From positions 1-23,481 of IMG/VR virus record IMGVR_UViG_3300025671_000539: DNA of 23,481 nt. One strand, given 5' to 3'. Below the pieces are notes generated by a model. That model did not search any database. It saw only the letters and a list, made by a program, of their open reading frames with translations, and was not told the origin of the DNA. A program made the translations under genes and the position numbers. Each line of letters begins with the position of its first letter. Positions within the stretch are counted from its first letter, which is position 1. This document shows positions 17,445 through 23,436 of this stretch, one piece after another. This DNA is from a virus.

Positions 17445-20400
17445 ATGCCAATAGTCAAAATGTCACTAGGCGAAGCCTTGGAAAAAGGCTACCAGGTTGT
17501 AGGCGCACAACAAGCACAACGAGAGGATGCCACATTTAGTGAGTCTGCAATTAGTATTGGCCTCGAAGTTGTACCCGCATTACTAGGTGGCATAATGGGT
17601 GGACCCGCTGGCGGTGCTGGCGGTGCTGGTATAGGTAATTATCTATCGCAAAGATACAGAATTTCACGAGGACTCCAAGATGATTACGGACTTGGTGAAC
17701 TTGGCGCATCTATGGCATTAGGTGCGATACCTGTAGGTAAACTCGCAAATGTTGGCACAGTTGGTAAGACTGCAATTCGCGGAGCGCAAGGATCAGGTAT
17801 GGCGACCGCCGAACTTGCCGCAAGAACTTACATAGACGAAGATCGTGCGCCTACACAGGAGGAACTCGCAAGCACTATATTATTTGGTGGCTTATTTGGT
17901 GGCACACTTGGTGCAGTAGAGGCGAAGTATTTAAACGACACTTTAGATATTGATGCACCCGAAGGGGCGACCCGCCCGGAGGTAGTTAAACTACTTGAGA
18001 ATAAAATAGATGAAGCTGGTGGTATGGATAACTTTGCGGTGGGTAGACCAACCGTCACCGCCCTTGGTCCACGCAGACTGCGTGTATGGAATCCAAAAGA
18101 ATTAGAAGGCCCAAACGCCGAGACACCAGGGGAGTTATTACTCGGAGGAATAGAGGGGCAACTTTTACTTGAGGCAGAGAGTGCCGTAAATAAAGCGGCA
18201 CGAGTAAAAGGCGAGGAAGTGACTGAGCAGATGGCCACACTTCAACAAATATTCGAGGGTAAGGATCTCGCGGATAACCAAATCTTTAAAGGTATTAATA
18301 CCACTATCAATAAAGGCATCCAGCGCGTGGGTGATAATACTGAGTTAAATTCCTTAAAGGAACGCATCGCGGTATTAGATCATAAACTTGGTAAAGGACA
18401 GGGAGCCAAGAAAGAGCGTGCGAGGATCGAGGGCGCTATGCGTAGGGTATATAAGCGTAACGGTTTAAACCTTCTAGATTTACAGGACGATATGCGTGCT
18501 TCGCAAATGGCTCCTAATGATCCACCAAAACTCACAGGTAAGGATCGCCCACCCACAAAAGCTGATCCGATGACTAAGGAGGAGCGACTAGCAGAGAAAT
18601 ATTTTGGGCAAGGGTACGAAAAGTTTTTCGGTGGTGCTGTATCCACAGGTGCAGTAGGTGCGGCTATGTTATCCGAGGAAGATGAGGACGAAATGAAGCG
18701 GGCTGGGTTTAGTCCTGAGATGATCCTTGTTTTAATTGCCGCCGGACTAGGAGCGAAAGGGTTTAGTAAATTTAGAAAAACCAAGTCGTTCAAACAAATG
18801 AACGCACAGGGTAGGGCAAACCCAAAGCAAGCAGAACCTACGCAGTTTAAGGAGCAACGCATGGCCAATAACATGGAGCGTAATGCTTTTGCGGGTCCCA
18901 CTAATGCAGAGAAAATAAAAGAGGATGCTAAAGGTATTATCAGCAACATGCTTGAGCCTCTGTCGCGTAAGTTAAAGAAGATAGATGTATCTTTGGCACG
19001 GGTATTTCGCGATCATGATATGCAAGTCGCAGTAAAGACAAGAGAGTACATGGATAAGGTAACTCCGTTTCTGAGGTCCGTTACCCCACGATTAAAAAAT
19101 AGTCCCGAACTTCAGCGTAAGTTTAAACAATACTTACTTAATGGAGAATACACAAAGATATCAGACGAGATACTGCCGTCTATTAAAGCACCCGAAGCTA
19201 TATTTAAACAAATGAGCGATATGCGTAGCACGCTCGATGAACTGCGTGACTATGCAAGAGAGCGTGGAGGAATAGATGTAGGGTATATAGCATCCTATTT
19301 CCCAAGGCAGATAAAGGACTATAAAAAATTTAGAAAAGCGCTGGATGAAAAGCTAGGTAATACCCAAACTAAAAACCAAATTGATCAAGCCTTAGACGAG
19401 TATGCGAAAAAGCACGGCTATGATAACGCCGATCTAATACCACCCGAAGAAGCGGGCGAAGTGGTAAGTCGAGTACTAAGAGGTTACCCTGTTCAGCCTG
19501 GTCAGATGCCAGCTAATGCGAAGATGCGGAAGATTGAAGAGGTAAATGAAGAGTTCTTGGATGCCTATGCCGATCCAGGTGACGCACTTACCCAATATGT
19601 GGAGCGTATGGTACAGGCAACTGAACGCAGAAACTTTCTTTTCCGTAAACCAAATGTAAGCCAAGAGGTTGGATTCCAAGGAAGCCGCGACCGCACAGGT
19701 GGGGATCTCGGCATGTCTATGGATATGGATGATGGTGTAGTAGGCGCAGTCGCTAGGAGACTAGGCACAGAAAATAACTTATCTGCGGACGATGTGGATG
19801 CACTCCGCAAAATAATCAAAGCTAGATTTAGCGGGCAGTCTGTAAGCAATGCGGCGCAAGTCGTGAAGAACGCAAACTATATCGCCACAATGGGTAACTT
19901 TGGTTCGGCAATCACTCAGCTTGGTGACTTGGCTTATAGTATACACTTTAATGGATTTGGTGAAACCTTCCGCTCTCTGTTTAATCGCAAAGATAATTAC
20001 GATTTTGTTAAACACTTTGGCCTTAGTGACCACAATATAGATACAATTACTACAACAGGAGGATTAAGTAAGGCACTCGATAAAGTCTTTACTGTTACCG
20101 GGCTAAAGAAGCTCGATCAATTGAGTAAGAATACAACCATGAATGCATCGTGGAAAAAGTATAAAGCTCAAGCGATGAAAAACTCCAAGCAGTTGCAAGA
20201 CGAACTTACTCCTGTGTTTGGAGCAGAGCGTGCTGGACAAATGGTAAAAGAATTACGCGAAAGTAATCCTGGGTCTAAGAACCTACCTAAAGGAGTGGAG
20301 GAATTAATTTGGTACAAGTTCCTTGATTTGAATCCAGCGAGTCTTACCGAGATGCCATTGTATTACAATGCGGCTGGTAATATGCGTATCGCTTATATGC

Positions 20401-20882
20401 TCAAGAGTTTTACCATAAAGCAGTTCGATGTATTTAGGGAAGCCGCTGGTAAAGACATAGCGGAAGCTAAACTCAAAATGCAAAAGGGCGACAAGCAAGG
20501 TGCGGCTCGATCTGCGGCACAGGGTATCTATAAACTTACAAGCCTTGGTCTGATATTCGGTGCGGCTAATGCAAGTACCGATGTTATTAAAGACACAATG
20601 TATGGTCGCCCAACGGACATGGATGATCTACTTGCAGATAACGCATTAAAGTTACTTGGTATCAATCGATACTTGGCTTACAAAGCACGGCGCGAAGGTG
20701 TAGGTAAAGCAGTAATGGAGATGGCACTTCCGCCCATGACAGTCATTGATAGATTGGGTAAAGACTTAGATAACTTATTCCAAGGTAAAGACTACAAAGG
20801 TAACATGTTACAAGGCACACCTCTCGATATTATTTATTGGCAGTACTTGGGTGGACTTGACAAAACTCAACGAGCCAAGTAG
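17445..20882 (+). CDS. Large putative DNA-ejection/internal core protein (1145 aa)
   Basis: The longest gene, last of the late operon and directly before its terminator. The N-terminus has two Gly-rich hydrophobic segments (VVPALLGGIMGGPAGGAGGAG at about residues 42-62, and ILFGGLFGGTLGAVEA near 145-160), and another hydrophobic stretch (EMILVLIAAGLGAKG) near 425-440. The rest is helical. The C-terminal half includes YIASYFPRQIKDYKKF, NYIATMGNFGSAITQLGDLAYS and LPPMTVIDRLGKDL, a pattern I associate with very large phage virion proteins. I see no lytic transglycosylase or peptidase motif, so wall degradation cannot be assigned to it. Membrane-active segments plus position suggest a channel-forming ejection protein. 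ATG at 17445 and 17460 are alternative starts with weak ribosome sites. Confidence 0.65.
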   Translation: MPIVKMSLGEALEKGYQVVGAQQAQREDATFSESAISIGLEVVPALLGGIMGGPAGGAGGAGIGNYLSQRYRISRGLQDDYGLGELGASMALGAIPVGKLANVGTVGKTAIRGAQGSGMATAELAARTYIDEDRAPTQEELASTILFGGLFGGTLGAVEAKYLNDTLDIDAPEGATRPEVVKLLENKIDEAGGMDNFAVGRPTVTALGPRRLRVWNPKELEGPNAETPGELLLGGIEGQLLLEAESAVNKAARVKGEEVTEQMATLQQIFEGKDLADNQIFKGINTTINKGIQRVGDNTELNSLKERIAVLDHKLGKGQGAKKERARIEGAMRRVYKRNGLNLLDLQDDMRASQMAPNDPPKLTGKDRPPTKADPMTKEERLAEKYFGQGYEKFFGGAVSTGAVGAAMLSEEDEDEMKRAGFSPEMILVLIAAGLGAKGFSKFRKTKSFKQMNAQGRANPKQAEPTQFKEQRMANNMERNAFAGPTNAEKIKEDAKGIISNMLEPLSRKLKKIDVSLARVFRDHDMQVAVKTREYMDKVTPFLRSVTPRLKNSPELQRKFKQYLLNGEYTKISDEILPSIKAPEAIFKQMSDMRSTLDELRDYARERGGIDVGYIASYFPRQIKDYKKFRKALDEKLGNTQTKNQIDQALDEYAKKHGYDNADLIPPEEAGEVVSRVLRGYPVQPGQMPANAKMRKIEEVNEEFLDAYADPGDALTQYVERMVQATERRNFLFRKPNVSQEVGFQGSRDRTGGDLGMSMDMDDGVVGAVARRLGTENNLSADDVDALRKIIKARFSGQSVSNAAQVVKNANYIATMGNFGSAITQLGDLAYSIHFNGFGETFRSLFNRKDNYDFVKHFGLSDHNIDTITTTGGLSKALDKVFTVTGLKKLDQLSKNTTMNASWKKYKAQAMKNSKQLQDELTPVFGAERAGQMVKELRESNPGSKNLPKGVEELIWYKFLDLNPASLTEMPLYYNAAGNMRIAYMLKSFTIKQFDVFREAAGKDIAEAKLKMQKGDKQGAARSAAQGIYKLTSLGLIFGAANASTDVIKDTMYGRPTDMDDLLADNALKLLGINRYLAYKARREGVGKAVMEMALPPMTVIDRLGKDLDNLFQGKDYKGNMLQGTPLDIIYWQYLGGLDKTQRAK

Positions 20883-20923: not shown

Positions 20924-20949
20924 AAGCGGGGGCAACCCCGCTTTTTTTT
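20924..20949 (+). terminator. Rho-independent terminator at the end of the late operon
   Basis: Stem AAGCGGGG (20924-20931) and CCCCGCTT (20936-20943) closes a GCAA (GNRA-type) tetraloop and is followed by eight Ts. It is the strongest terminator in the window and lies 41 bases past the last virion gene. It insulates the attachment site and integrase from late transcription. Confidence 0.95.
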
Positions 20950-20999
20950 GCACTTTTTTTGTTAATAGTTTGACACGAATGTCTATTGTGTTTTTTGTG

Positions 21000-21037: not shown

Positions 21038-21082
21038 GCCGGCGTAGCTCAGTTGGTAGAGCAGGAGACTCTTAATCTTTCG
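21038..21082 (+). other. attP: attP core: 5' half of a tRNA-Lys(CUU) gene
   Basis: The stretch begins GCCGGCGTAGCTCAGTTGG and matches tRNA numbering exactly: a 7-base acceptor strand, TA, D-stem GCTC/GAGC with an AGTTGGTA loop, A26, anticodon stem GGAGA/TCTTT, and loop CTCTTAA with anticodon CTT (Lys). It then stops resembling a tRNA: no T-arm, variable loop or acceptor 3' strand follows, and none was found elsewhere in the window. A truncated tRNA beside a tyrosine integrase is the signature of a phage attachment site. The outer anticodon-stem pairs are G-U, so identity with the host gene may end at about 21078 rather than 21082. An unrelated tRNA remnant is the alternative. Confidence 0.75.
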
Positions 21083-21113: not shown

Positions 21114-22121
21114 ATGATTACATTGACCAAGGCTCCGCAAAGGGATACCAACTCTCGGCTTATGATGAACGCGAACCCCATTCGTGCCGTCTTGCCCAAC
21201 GGCGATACCCTGATAACGCGAGGAGGTTTACCCTCAGTAGCTGACGAGTTAGCCCGCCCGTCATGGCCGATGATTGAGGAGTTGTTTTGGACCTACGAGA
21301 CAGAAAAGCTGACTGCTGGTAATCCTAAGGACGATACCAAGCGCAAAAATGTGGTGGCTATGCGCCGCATCTTGGTGCGTGCGGGGATTGATCCCGTAAC
21401 ATGTGACATCCGCCACTTCGCGGGGAGCGTGGGTAACCGCTGTATCCCGGAGTGGTATGTATGCACGCATAGTGCGAACGATGTAAGGTTAGCACGCTCG
21501 ATGTTCTCCAAGCGGTGGATTATGTTTTACCGCTCGCAGGGTATCGACACCCGCCCATTTGCGAATTGGGTGGCGTTACCTTTGCAAGGGATCAAGGTGA
21601 AGCAGTTTGATCCGAAATATGGCGAGGAAGATAAGATCAATGAGCGTTGTAGGCGCTTAAAGACTGAGGATCAAAGTATGTATTTAATGTACGCATTGGC
21701 GTACGGTCTTGGTCTTCGTAGTTCGGAGATCAAGCGAGCAAGGTTTAAAGACTTGCACTTAGATGGTGTAGGTAATCCTGTAATTGCGATACATAATCCT
21801 AAGAGTGGCGGTAATATTCAGTATCGTCCATGTGACCCATCATGGTGGGAGGAGATAGTATCTTTTAAAACATCGTCCGATGATTTAATAGTTCCTGTCC
21901 AAGAGGATAGGATTACAAGGGACTTTCCGCAGTTCCTCCGTGAGGAATGTGGAGTGGAGGACCTCAGACCTGTGCATCGCTTGCGTAAGTATTGCGGGCA
22001 TCGGGTGATGAGGAGTAACGGGAATAACGCATTTGTGGCGAGCCGTGCGCTTGGCCACTCAAGTGTGGAGATGACTAGCAGAGTGTATGTTGGGAATCCT
22101 CAGATAGCGCCTAGCTTCTAG
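21114..22121 (+). CDS. int: Tyrosine-family integrase (site-specific recombinase)
   Basis: A 335-aa protein that should recombine phage attP with a host tRNA gene. The catalytic domain is complete: R202 in GLGLRSSE, K230 in NPKSGG, H288 and R291 in HRLRKYCG, H315 in ALGHSS and the nucleophile Y325 in SRVYVG. The N-terminal half (about 40-165), including LVRAGIDPVTCDIRHF, fits a core-binding domain, and an arm-binding domain would be short or absent. The start is uncertain: ATG at 21114 lies in the attP region without a ribosome site, and ATGs at 21162 and 21165 are alternatives. The gene begins right after the tRNA fragment and points away from the late operon. Confidence 0.93.
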   Translation: MITLTKAPQRDTNSRLMMNANPIRAVLPNGDTLITRGGLPSVADELARPSWPMIEELFWTYETEKLTAGNPKDDTKRKNVVAMRRILVRAGIDPVTCDIRHFAGSVGNRCIPEWYVCTHSANDVRLARSMFSKRWIMFYRSQGIDTRPFANWVALPLQGIKVKQFDPKYGEEDKINERCRRLKTEDQSMYLMYALAYGLGLRSSEIKRARFKDLHLDGVGNPVIAIHNPKSGGNIQYRPCDPSWWEEIVSFKTSSDDLIVPVQEDRITRDFPQFLREECGVEDLRPVHRLRKYCGHRVMRSNGNNAFVASRALGHSSVEMTSRVYVGNPQIAPSF

Positions 22122-22185: not shown

Positions 22186-22407
22186 ATGGCTACTACAATA
22201 TCAAATAATGGTGTAAGATTTAGGCACGAGCCTGGGTCTATGGACATAGAAATCTACGCGGAAGCACCTACCGTGCTACCGATCAAGGAAGTGGTGGAGG
22301 ACCTTATCGGTCTACTTTCAAGCGAACAGGCAACTGAAGTCCTTCTTCTCCTTCAAGCGCCTTTAACGCACCGTTTAGTACATGCTCAAACACCTGAGCT
22401 TGCATGA
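22186..22407 (+). CDS. Small protein of unknown function
   Basis: A 73-aa ORF with a good ribosome site (AAAGGA, 22174-22179, six bases before the ATG). The first 50 residues look protein-like, with GSMDIEIYAEAPTVLPIKEV and a Leu-rich amphipathic helix EDLIGLLSSEQATEVLLLL. The last 35 codons lie opposite the 3' half of the minus-strand ribbon-helix-helix gene, so part of this C-terminus is constrained by the other strand. I recognise no family. It is probably an early gene transcribed with or after the integrase; a possible -10 TATAAA lies at 22150-22155 without a clear -35. Confidence 0.5.
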   Translation: MATTISNNGVRFRHEPGSMDIEIYAEAPTVLPIKEVVEDLIGLLSSEQATEVLLLLQAPLTHRLVHAQTPELA

Positions 22408-22501
22408 GTCCTGTGTCTGCGGCGATTTCTTTCACTCGTTCACGGACATACTTGGAGTATCTGATATTCACGGGTTGGGTGAGTCCTTCTTTTTTTGGCA
22501 T
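22304..22501 (-). CDS. Ribbon-helix-helix DNA-binding protein (likely repressor)
   Basis: A 65-aa protein and the only convincing minus-strand gene. Residues 8-49 fit the RHH pattern of the Arc/MetJ/CopG class: a strand TQPVNIRYS, helix A KYVRERVKEIAADTG, and helix B LMQAQVFEHVLNGALKALE. Such proteins dimerise through the strand and bind short tandem operators. The ATG at 22501 is chosen because the frame upstream of it reads as unusual Cys/Tyr/Val sequence and because a perfect dyad is centred on this codon. It is divergent from the SSB gene, and three phased ACACATAA repeats lie between them, suggesting autoregulation and control of the early genes. It overlaps the + strand ORF ending at 22407 by 104 bases. 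Confidence 0.75.
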   Translation of the reverse strand: MPKKEGLTQPVNIRYSKYVRERVKEIAADTGLMQAQVFEHVLNGALKALEGEEGLQLPVRLKVDR

Positions 22502-22535
22502 AGTGCCAACACATAAACACACATAAAACACATAA
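22495..22535. promoter_or_regulatory. Operator-like dyad and three phased ACACATAA repeats
   Basis: A perfect inverted repeat TTGGCA-TAG-TGCCAA (22495-22509) covers the RHH start codon. Three direct copies of ACACATAA follow at 22509-22516, 22519-22526 and 22528-22535, spaced 10 and 9 bases, about one helical turn. RHH repressors typically bind such short tandem sites. The array ends four bases before the AAGGAG of the SSB gene. Promoter hexamers are not clear. Confidence 0.55.
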
Positions 22536-22552
22536 CACAAGGAGAAAATATA

Positions 22553-23134
22553 ATGGGATTCTTAGATGGAATAACAGAAGTGAAGTCATCCGGCGATTCG
22601 GGTGGCAATTATATGAAACTACAACCTGGTGCGAATCAGTTCCGCATTGTGGGTTCCGGCGATGATGGAGGATTCATCCAAGGCATGCTTGGTTGGTCCA
22701 CGAATGACGAGGGTAAACGCCAGCCACATCGGTGGAGAGTGGGCGAAGATGCACCACGCACATTCGAGGAGCGTCCGAAGGAGTTCTTTGCGATGCTGGT
22801 TTGGAACTACAAAGAATCACGCATTCAGATTCTTGAGCTTACACAGGCTGGTCTGAAGCGCGAACTGATGGCATTGGCGAGTGATGCGGAAGATTGGGGT
22901 GACCCAAGAAAGTATGACATCTCTATCACCAAAAGCGGTGAGGGTTTGGAGACGACTTACGCGATGACTCCCAAGCCACCGAAGAAGCGTGCCGATGAGA
23001 TTAACGAGGCGGTGAAGAACTTAAAAGCTAACCTAACGGCACTCTATGATGGTGGAGATCCATTTGAGGATGCACCCGCACCTGTACAAGAACCTGTACA
23101 GGAAGAAGCCGGAGAAGAAGAGGAGCCATTCTGA
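22553..23134 (+). CDS. ssb: Single-stranded DNA-binding protein (phage SSB)
   Basis: A 193-aa protein with a compact N-terminal domain and a long acidic tail ending EAGEEEEPF, the classic SSB C-terminal tip through which replication and recombination partners bind. Segments NYMKLQPGANQFRIVG (19-34), HRWRVGEDAP (59-68), MLVWNYKESRIQILELTQ (81-98) and WGDPRKYDISITKSG (115-129) match the layout of phage SSBs seen in early modules. It coats ssDNA during phage replication and recombination. A strong ribosome site AAGGAGAAAATATA precedes the ATG, so expression is likely high, and it is downstream of the RHH operator region. Its stop overlaps the next start (TGATG). Confidence 0.85.
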   Translation: MGFLDGITEVKSSGDSGGNYMKLQPGANQFRIVGSGDDGGFIQGMLGWSTNDEGKRQPHRWRVGEDAPRTFEERPKEFFAMLVWNYKESRIQILELTQAGLKRELMALASDAEDWGDPRKYDISITKSGEGLETTYAMTPKPPKKRADEINEAVKNLKANLTALYDGGDPFEDAPAPVQEPVQEEAGEEEEPF

Positions 23135-23436
23135 TGTCTATTGGTAAGATTAAAAAGATTATCTGCGAGCGTATGGGTGTGTCGCTAGAAGCCTTGGATT
23201 CGCGTTCTCGGCTGAAGCGTACCGCCCTAGCTCGGCAGATCGCTATGTTCTATGCATATGCTATGGGCAACACATGCATGGAGGTGGGTCGCAAATTTAA
23301 GCGCGACCACTCCAATGTTAGCCACGCACGAAAGAAGGTGGAGCATTGGCGTAAGTACGATTGGGAGATTCGTGCGATGCTGGAAGGTATCGAAGACGAG
23401 TACCCTGTATTAAAAAAGGATACAATCGTATGTTAG
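23134..23436 (+). CDS. Stand-alone DnaA domain IV-like DNA-binding protein
   Basis: A 100-aa protein in which residues 23-72 match the C-terminal DNA-binding domain of the bacterial initiator DnaA: a basic SRSRLKRTALARQIAMFYA helix (residues 23-41), then MEVGRKFKRDHSNVSHARKK (49-68), equivalent to the DnaA signature GRxxxxRDHxxVxHA. The AAA+ ATPase part of DnaA is absent, and the ORF is complete, so this is a domain-only protein rather than a truncated dnaA. It probably binds DnaA-box-like sites, either at the phage origin or to compete with the host initiator; both are inferences. It is translationally coupled to the SSB gene (TGATG) and its stop overlaps the next ATG region. Confidence 0.8.
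   Translation: MSIGKIKKIICERMGVSLEALDSRSRLKRTALARQIAMFYAYAMGNTCMEVGRKFKRDHSNVSHARKKVEHWRKYDWEIRAMLEGIEDEYPVLKKDTIVC

Follow-up and report, generated by a model that had tools for sequence, protein, structure and literature searches.

The main finding of this study is that a phage that appears to infect marine Opitutales carries, directly before its integrase gene, the 5' half of a host tRNA-Lys(CTT) gene, and that relatives with the same family of integrase carry a 3' half at the same place. The textbook view is that integrating elements carry the 3' part of their target tRNA, so that the host promoter still drives the gene. The window analysed here—a linear virus record of 23,481 bases—is a fragment of a phage genome. 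We consider it likely that it comes from a temperate, or at least integration-competent, Opitutales phage, in which strand exchange in the anticodon loop of tRNA-Lys(CTT) would rebuild the tRNA at attR and exchange the promoters of the integrase and tRNA genes. The features on which this reading depends are the following.

17445 to 20882, plus strand: last gene of the late module, 1145 aa, a probable virion protein (weak PHROG head-and-packaging match).
20924 to 20950, plus strand: intrinsic terminator closing the late module (8-bp stem, then a T run).
20970 to 20998, plus strand: candidate integrase promoter (TTGACA, 17 nt, TTTTGT), a two-box element with 17-nt spacing that lines up in 22 representatives and that would end up as leader of the rebuilt tRNA at attR.
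21038 to 21080, plus strand: attP core, nucleotides 1-43 of the host tRNA-Lys(CTT), an exact match to intact Opitutales tRNA genes.
21069 to 21077, plus strand: tRNA positions 32-40, comprising the anticodon loop CTCTTAA (7 nt) and 2 nt more, the sole block common to ten 5'-type and 17 3'-type loci.
21114 to 22121, plus strand: tyrosine-recombinase integrase, 335 aa (PF00589, E=1.2e-8, above cut-off; PHROG integrase).

The 43 nt at 21038-21080 match an intact tRNA-Lys(CTT) gene of 76 nt without a single difference over its positions 1-43, beginning at G1 and stopping just 3' of the anticodon loop (21069-21075, with the anticodon at 21071-21073). The initial annotation had recognised the 5' half of a tRNA-Lys(CUU) gene in attP, which is borne out by this exact match, and had placed it at 21038-21082, of which the start is correct but the end lies two nucleotides too far. 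The search that it had proposed for a bacterial tRNA-Lys(CTT) with an identical 5' part was successful: the 40-mer 21038-21077 is present in five metagenome-assembled genomes (MAGs; L001-L005) titled Opitutales, Opitutia or Verrucomicrobia, in each of which ARAGORN finds a complete 76-nt tRNA-Lys(ctt) starting with it. ARAGORN calls no tRNA gene within the window itself. Chance identity was rejected, as an exact match of 40 nt from the first nucleotide of a tRNA cannot be random. The phage is marine and appears to target the gene for tRNA-Lys(CTT) in marine Opitutales (Verrucomicrobiota). The integrase ORF starts 33 bp after the tRNA half and, because phage genes flank it on both sides, the site is by its context the attP of the free phage; its reading as an attL or attR junction was rejected on the same grounds. 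The site thus both forms part of a host tRNA gene and adjoins int, as is characteristic of tRNA-targeting elements. The integrase is a tyrosine recombinase by its PF00589 domain and its R..K..HxxR..H..Y catalytic set, the residues of which (R202, K230, H288, R291, H315 and Y325) are invariant across 15 relatives; no relative was found in the named phage collection. Downstream, the minus strand bears an ORF of 71-78 aa (22304-22540), across from a small ORF on the plus strand (22186-22407). It has a weak match to a ribbon-helix-helix domain (RHH_10, E=0.064, which is below cut-off) and is a possible regulator or excision factor; comparable ORFs also come after int in L006 and L009. Farther on, 23134-23436 encodes a 100-aa phage protein that consists of barely more than a DnaA C-terminal helix-turn-helix (PF08299, E=5e-18).

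Integrase searches of IMG/VR, which yielded 24 and then 79 loci, revealed that the arrangement in the window is one of two. The same 5' half occupies the same place in L012, L013 and L014 (integrase identity 100, 83 and 74%, respectively), L006/L055 and L009/L046, while L047, L048, L050-L053 and L061 have a one-base variant (GCAGAAGACTC) that fits an intact tRNA of genome G255. In an alignment of 5'-type phages, none of the 40 columns of the 5' half varies, whereas the flanks diverge. By contrast, a 3' half of a tRNA-Lys(CTT) precedes int, in the same position and orientation, in L015-L030, L056, L059, L062, L072 and L076. In most 3'-type loci, this half belongs to a GCCGGGC tRNA present intact in Opitutales genomes, and in L049, L058, L067 and L068 it comes from the same tRNA that supplies the 5' half in the window. 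Since the genes on either side of att—the late protein, homologues of 17445-20882 being found at the same place beside both types of site, and an SSB-like protein—are homologous across types, these loci represent one phage family. That sister phages hold opposite halves at one place beside one integrase, both with ends that fit the rebuilding of a tRNA, speaks against the idea that the half is no att site but a captured fragment with a role as small RNA or decoy, directed for instance at anticodon nucleases. We find this idea scarcely credible, even though the half is short and conserved and would be co-transcribed with int if the element at 20970 is a promoter.

Several loci depart from these two arrangements. 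L043, L044 and L054, which are nested near the window (68-70% integrase identity), have lost the tRNA half and share instead AGCAGTAGACAATC(or ACC)AATCTTTTGGGAATCGTGA about 60-100 nt before int, which may be a decayed or retargeted att site; this loss in close relatives weighs against the integration model set out below. In L045 (3276-3630), a member of the 5'-half integrase clade, the attP segment is apparently missing between the promoter-like element and int. Outside this integrase family, only the 5' half of a tRNA-Lys(CTT) is found in the viral contigs L136 (around 4706) and L137 (around 9022, reverse complement), the latter with an ORF reading like a tyrosine integrase nearby on the opposite strand. 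Finally, L013 differs sharply from the window on one side of att, as identity of its late protein is just 30% over the part that matches, versus 83% for int and 83-97% for the integrase side. The two sides have therefore recombined apart, and the att region resembles a seam between the modules of a mosaic.

Because both types exist, sequence comparison by itself confines the crossover to nine bases. In 5'-type loci (n=10), the match to the host gene always runs from nucleotide 1 and ends between 40 and 49, whereas in 3'-type loci (n=17) it starts between 22 and 32 and reaches position 76, the last A of CCA, in 15; L026 and L029 diverge from the reference tRNAs because other tRNA-Lys versions fit them. 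Since the types overlap only at positions 32-40, both probably cross over in the anticodon loop, and only the rescued half would differ. This is in keeping with the general account in which an anticodon loop of 7 bp, together with its stem, is similar to the overlap (also 7 bp) and core sites that tyrosine integrases use (PMC8371274).

We propose that the integrase acts on attP and the tRNA-Lys(CTT) gene of the host, exchanging strands in this 7-bp loop. Because attP carries the 5' half, the host 3' half would join the phage 5' half to give an intact tRNA-Lys(CTT) at attR, which in the prophage would adjoin the late gene 17445-20882, and at attL the host promoter and an orphan 5' half would face int. 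The junctions were built in silico with the switch between phage and host sequence placed within the loop: ARAGORN found an intact tRNA-Lys(ctt) in attR (phage on the left, host on the right) and no tRNA in attL or in attP alone. The suggestion that the rebuilt tRNA begins in phage DNA is upheld by this junction, although the phage promoter expected to transcribe it is a candidate only. Integration could alternatively break the host tRNA, with a separate, complete phage tRNA complementing the loss and the 5' identity being incidental. Such tRNA-dependent lysogeny is known in mycobacteriophages and Gordonia phages, some of them at tRNA-Lys sites (PMC10865867), and with a window that is a 23-kb linear fragment, the rest of the genome lies outside it. 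We nevertheless judge it very improbable. These systems share about 8-10 bp with attB, whereas here 43 bp are common from G1 and the joined attR is an intact tRNA, and no tRNA gene is seen in the window or, over the Rfam cut-off, in ten relatives, including records of 36,105 and 37,006 bases. Likewise, the 3' half is absent, within three mismatches, from eight related records. A 3' half elsewhere in the phage, which would have spoken against the initial annotation, was therefore not encountered in those records, bearing in mind that the window is a fragment. The 40 invariant columns and the match from G1 in every 5'-type locus fit selection for a working tRNA, not for recombination alone.

A further part of the proposed mechanism is a reciprocal swap: transcription of the rebuilt tRNA would come from the element at 20970-20998, at attR, and that of int from the host tRNA promoter. 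This element is probably the int promoter of the free phage, which would remain at attR after integration. When representatives are aligned on the first box, the first column of the second box is T in 21 of 22—both types and outgroups included—which offers moderate support for a promoter, the rows being related and the region T-rich. Against this, the second box of the element does not resemble TATAAT, in several relatives the score of the element is no higher than that of shuffled sequence, and a scan found no canonical sigma-70 promoter around attP. A looser scan, also with mixed scores, picked out TTGAA-N16-TAT(A/G)AA 51 nt before the tRNA half in L046, L047, L050, L051, L053 and L061; this site, which the clade of the window itself lacks, may act as promoter of the rebuilt tRNA. 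Given these mixed scores, we do not claim any promoter as demonstrated.

Comparison of the two types also shows which parts of the arrangement are peculiar to the 5' state. The terminator at 20924-20950 had been thought to shield the rebuilt tRNA from late transcription. An intrinsic terminator is indeed present, located at 20924-20943, but both it and the two-box element occur in 3'-type relatives too and are therefore not dedicated to the rebuilt tRNA. Similarly, the placement of int behind the host tRNA promoter follows from the geometry, as had been predicted, but it is not a consequence of carrying a 5' half: the position and direction of int do not differ in 3'-type phages, so int is expected under the host tRNA promoter in both. 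The difference would be that promoter exchange leaves the tRNA its own promoter in the 3' type, whereas in the 5' type the tRNA would change hands too.

How far the host would depend on the phage is less clear-cut than the mutual dependence originally envisaged. The tRNA of the predicted attR does start from phage DNA, but strict host dependence is doubtful, since the one candidate-host genome examined (G003) also has a tRNA-Lys(ttt), which was missed by sequence patterns and recovered by a tRNA family search. A tRNA-Lys(ttt) may read AAG as well. Loss of tRNA-Lys(CTT) therefore need not be lethal, although the fact that divergent 5'-type phages keep all 40 bases unchanged points to a cost.

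Prophages with this integrase were sought in 373 Opitutales genomes, as the initial annotation had advised, and no lysogen was found. There was no close integrase relative, only remote matches (29-49% identity), and no second att copy, with one match per genome at most; in addition, IMG/VR viral contigs contained no intact tRNA-Lys of the two target kinds. Because of this, integration, the exchange point and both promoters are what we infer from sequence geometry and precedent. The same result would be expected if the phage integrated only transiently during lytic growth and formed no stable lysogens, in which case the restored tRNA would matter little. T7-like cyanophages, which are reported to integrate at tRNA-Leu without stable lysogeny, provide a precedent (PMC8776855). 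We hold this to be unlikely, though far from negligible: that divergent phages retain the whole half exactly, from G1 on, suggests survival of cells carrying an integrated phage, and prophages can be hidden by MAG binning and sampling.

Comparison with known systems indicates that the 5' arrangement is rare but already known. In the Islander database, 159 islands have a 5' tDNA fragment versus 3,760 with a 3' fragment (PMC4383910), which agrees with the earlier view that a 5' half is unusual while showing that it is not without precedent. These 5'-fragment islands are alike in having a tyrosine integrase, a tRNA target, a crossover in the anticodon loop (inferred here) and a tRNA rebuilt at the other end. 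The differences are that Islander maps integrated islands, while our data consist of free-phage attP sites and predicted junctions, from searches of 373 genomes and IMG/VR, and that the integrase family described here uses the 3' half as well. There is also an archaeal counterpart in pTN3-like elements, which carry the 5' half and express the rebuilt tRNA from the integrase promoter, an arrangement seldom met in bacteria (PMC8371274); the likeness lies in the att arrangement, our case being a bacterial phage with a candidate promoter. In ICEKp1 at tRNA-Asn, int is transcribed from the host tRNA promoter when the element is integrated and from a promoter at its far (3') end when it is excised (PMC13023037), which is the geometry expected for the element at 20970. 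As described, however, ICEKp1—an ICE at an ordinary site—displaces the terminator of the tRNA, not its promoter, and no element promoter takes over the tRNA. Actinobacteriophages with tRNA-dependent lysogeny (PMC10865867) likewise have a tyrosine integrase at a tRNA gene, commonly with an anticodon-loop crossover, but with a short core, a tRNA that is not rebuilt and the requirement for a separate phage tRNA. The T7-like cyanophages P-SSP7 and S-TIP37 (PMC8776855) are also marine and possess an integrase, and their attP exactly matches a portion of a tRNA gene; this gene is however tRNA-Leu, attP lies downstream of int and stable lysogens are not formed. In the open-access literature, we found no account of one integrase family with opposite halves of the same tRNA gene, and the presence of both halves within one family is apparently new.

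How this family came to use both halves is suggested by the integrase phylogeny. The best tree and bootstrap trees contain two changes between 5' and 3' states, two are forced by strongly supported branches, and in a wider tree the states are interleaved. Constraining the 5' type to one origin comes at a cost of 5.8 log units, yet a topology test does not reject this constraint (p-AU 0.066), and repeated switching is therefore favoured but unproven. We propose, tentatively and with somewhat less than even confidence, that the family has changed more than once which half, 5' or 3', it rescues, with the crossover fixed in the anticodon loop, and that integration in the 5' state swaps the int and tRNA promoters, placing the host tRNA under phage control in the lysogen. 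If the promoter exchange is true, a host tRNA gene would be run by phage DNA in the lysogen. Moreover, the family offers a natural comparison—the same integrase family, int position, target loop and sometimes the same tRNA, but opposite halves—which makes it possible to ask whether the 3' rule reflects the mechanics of recombination or a penalty for giving up the host promoter.
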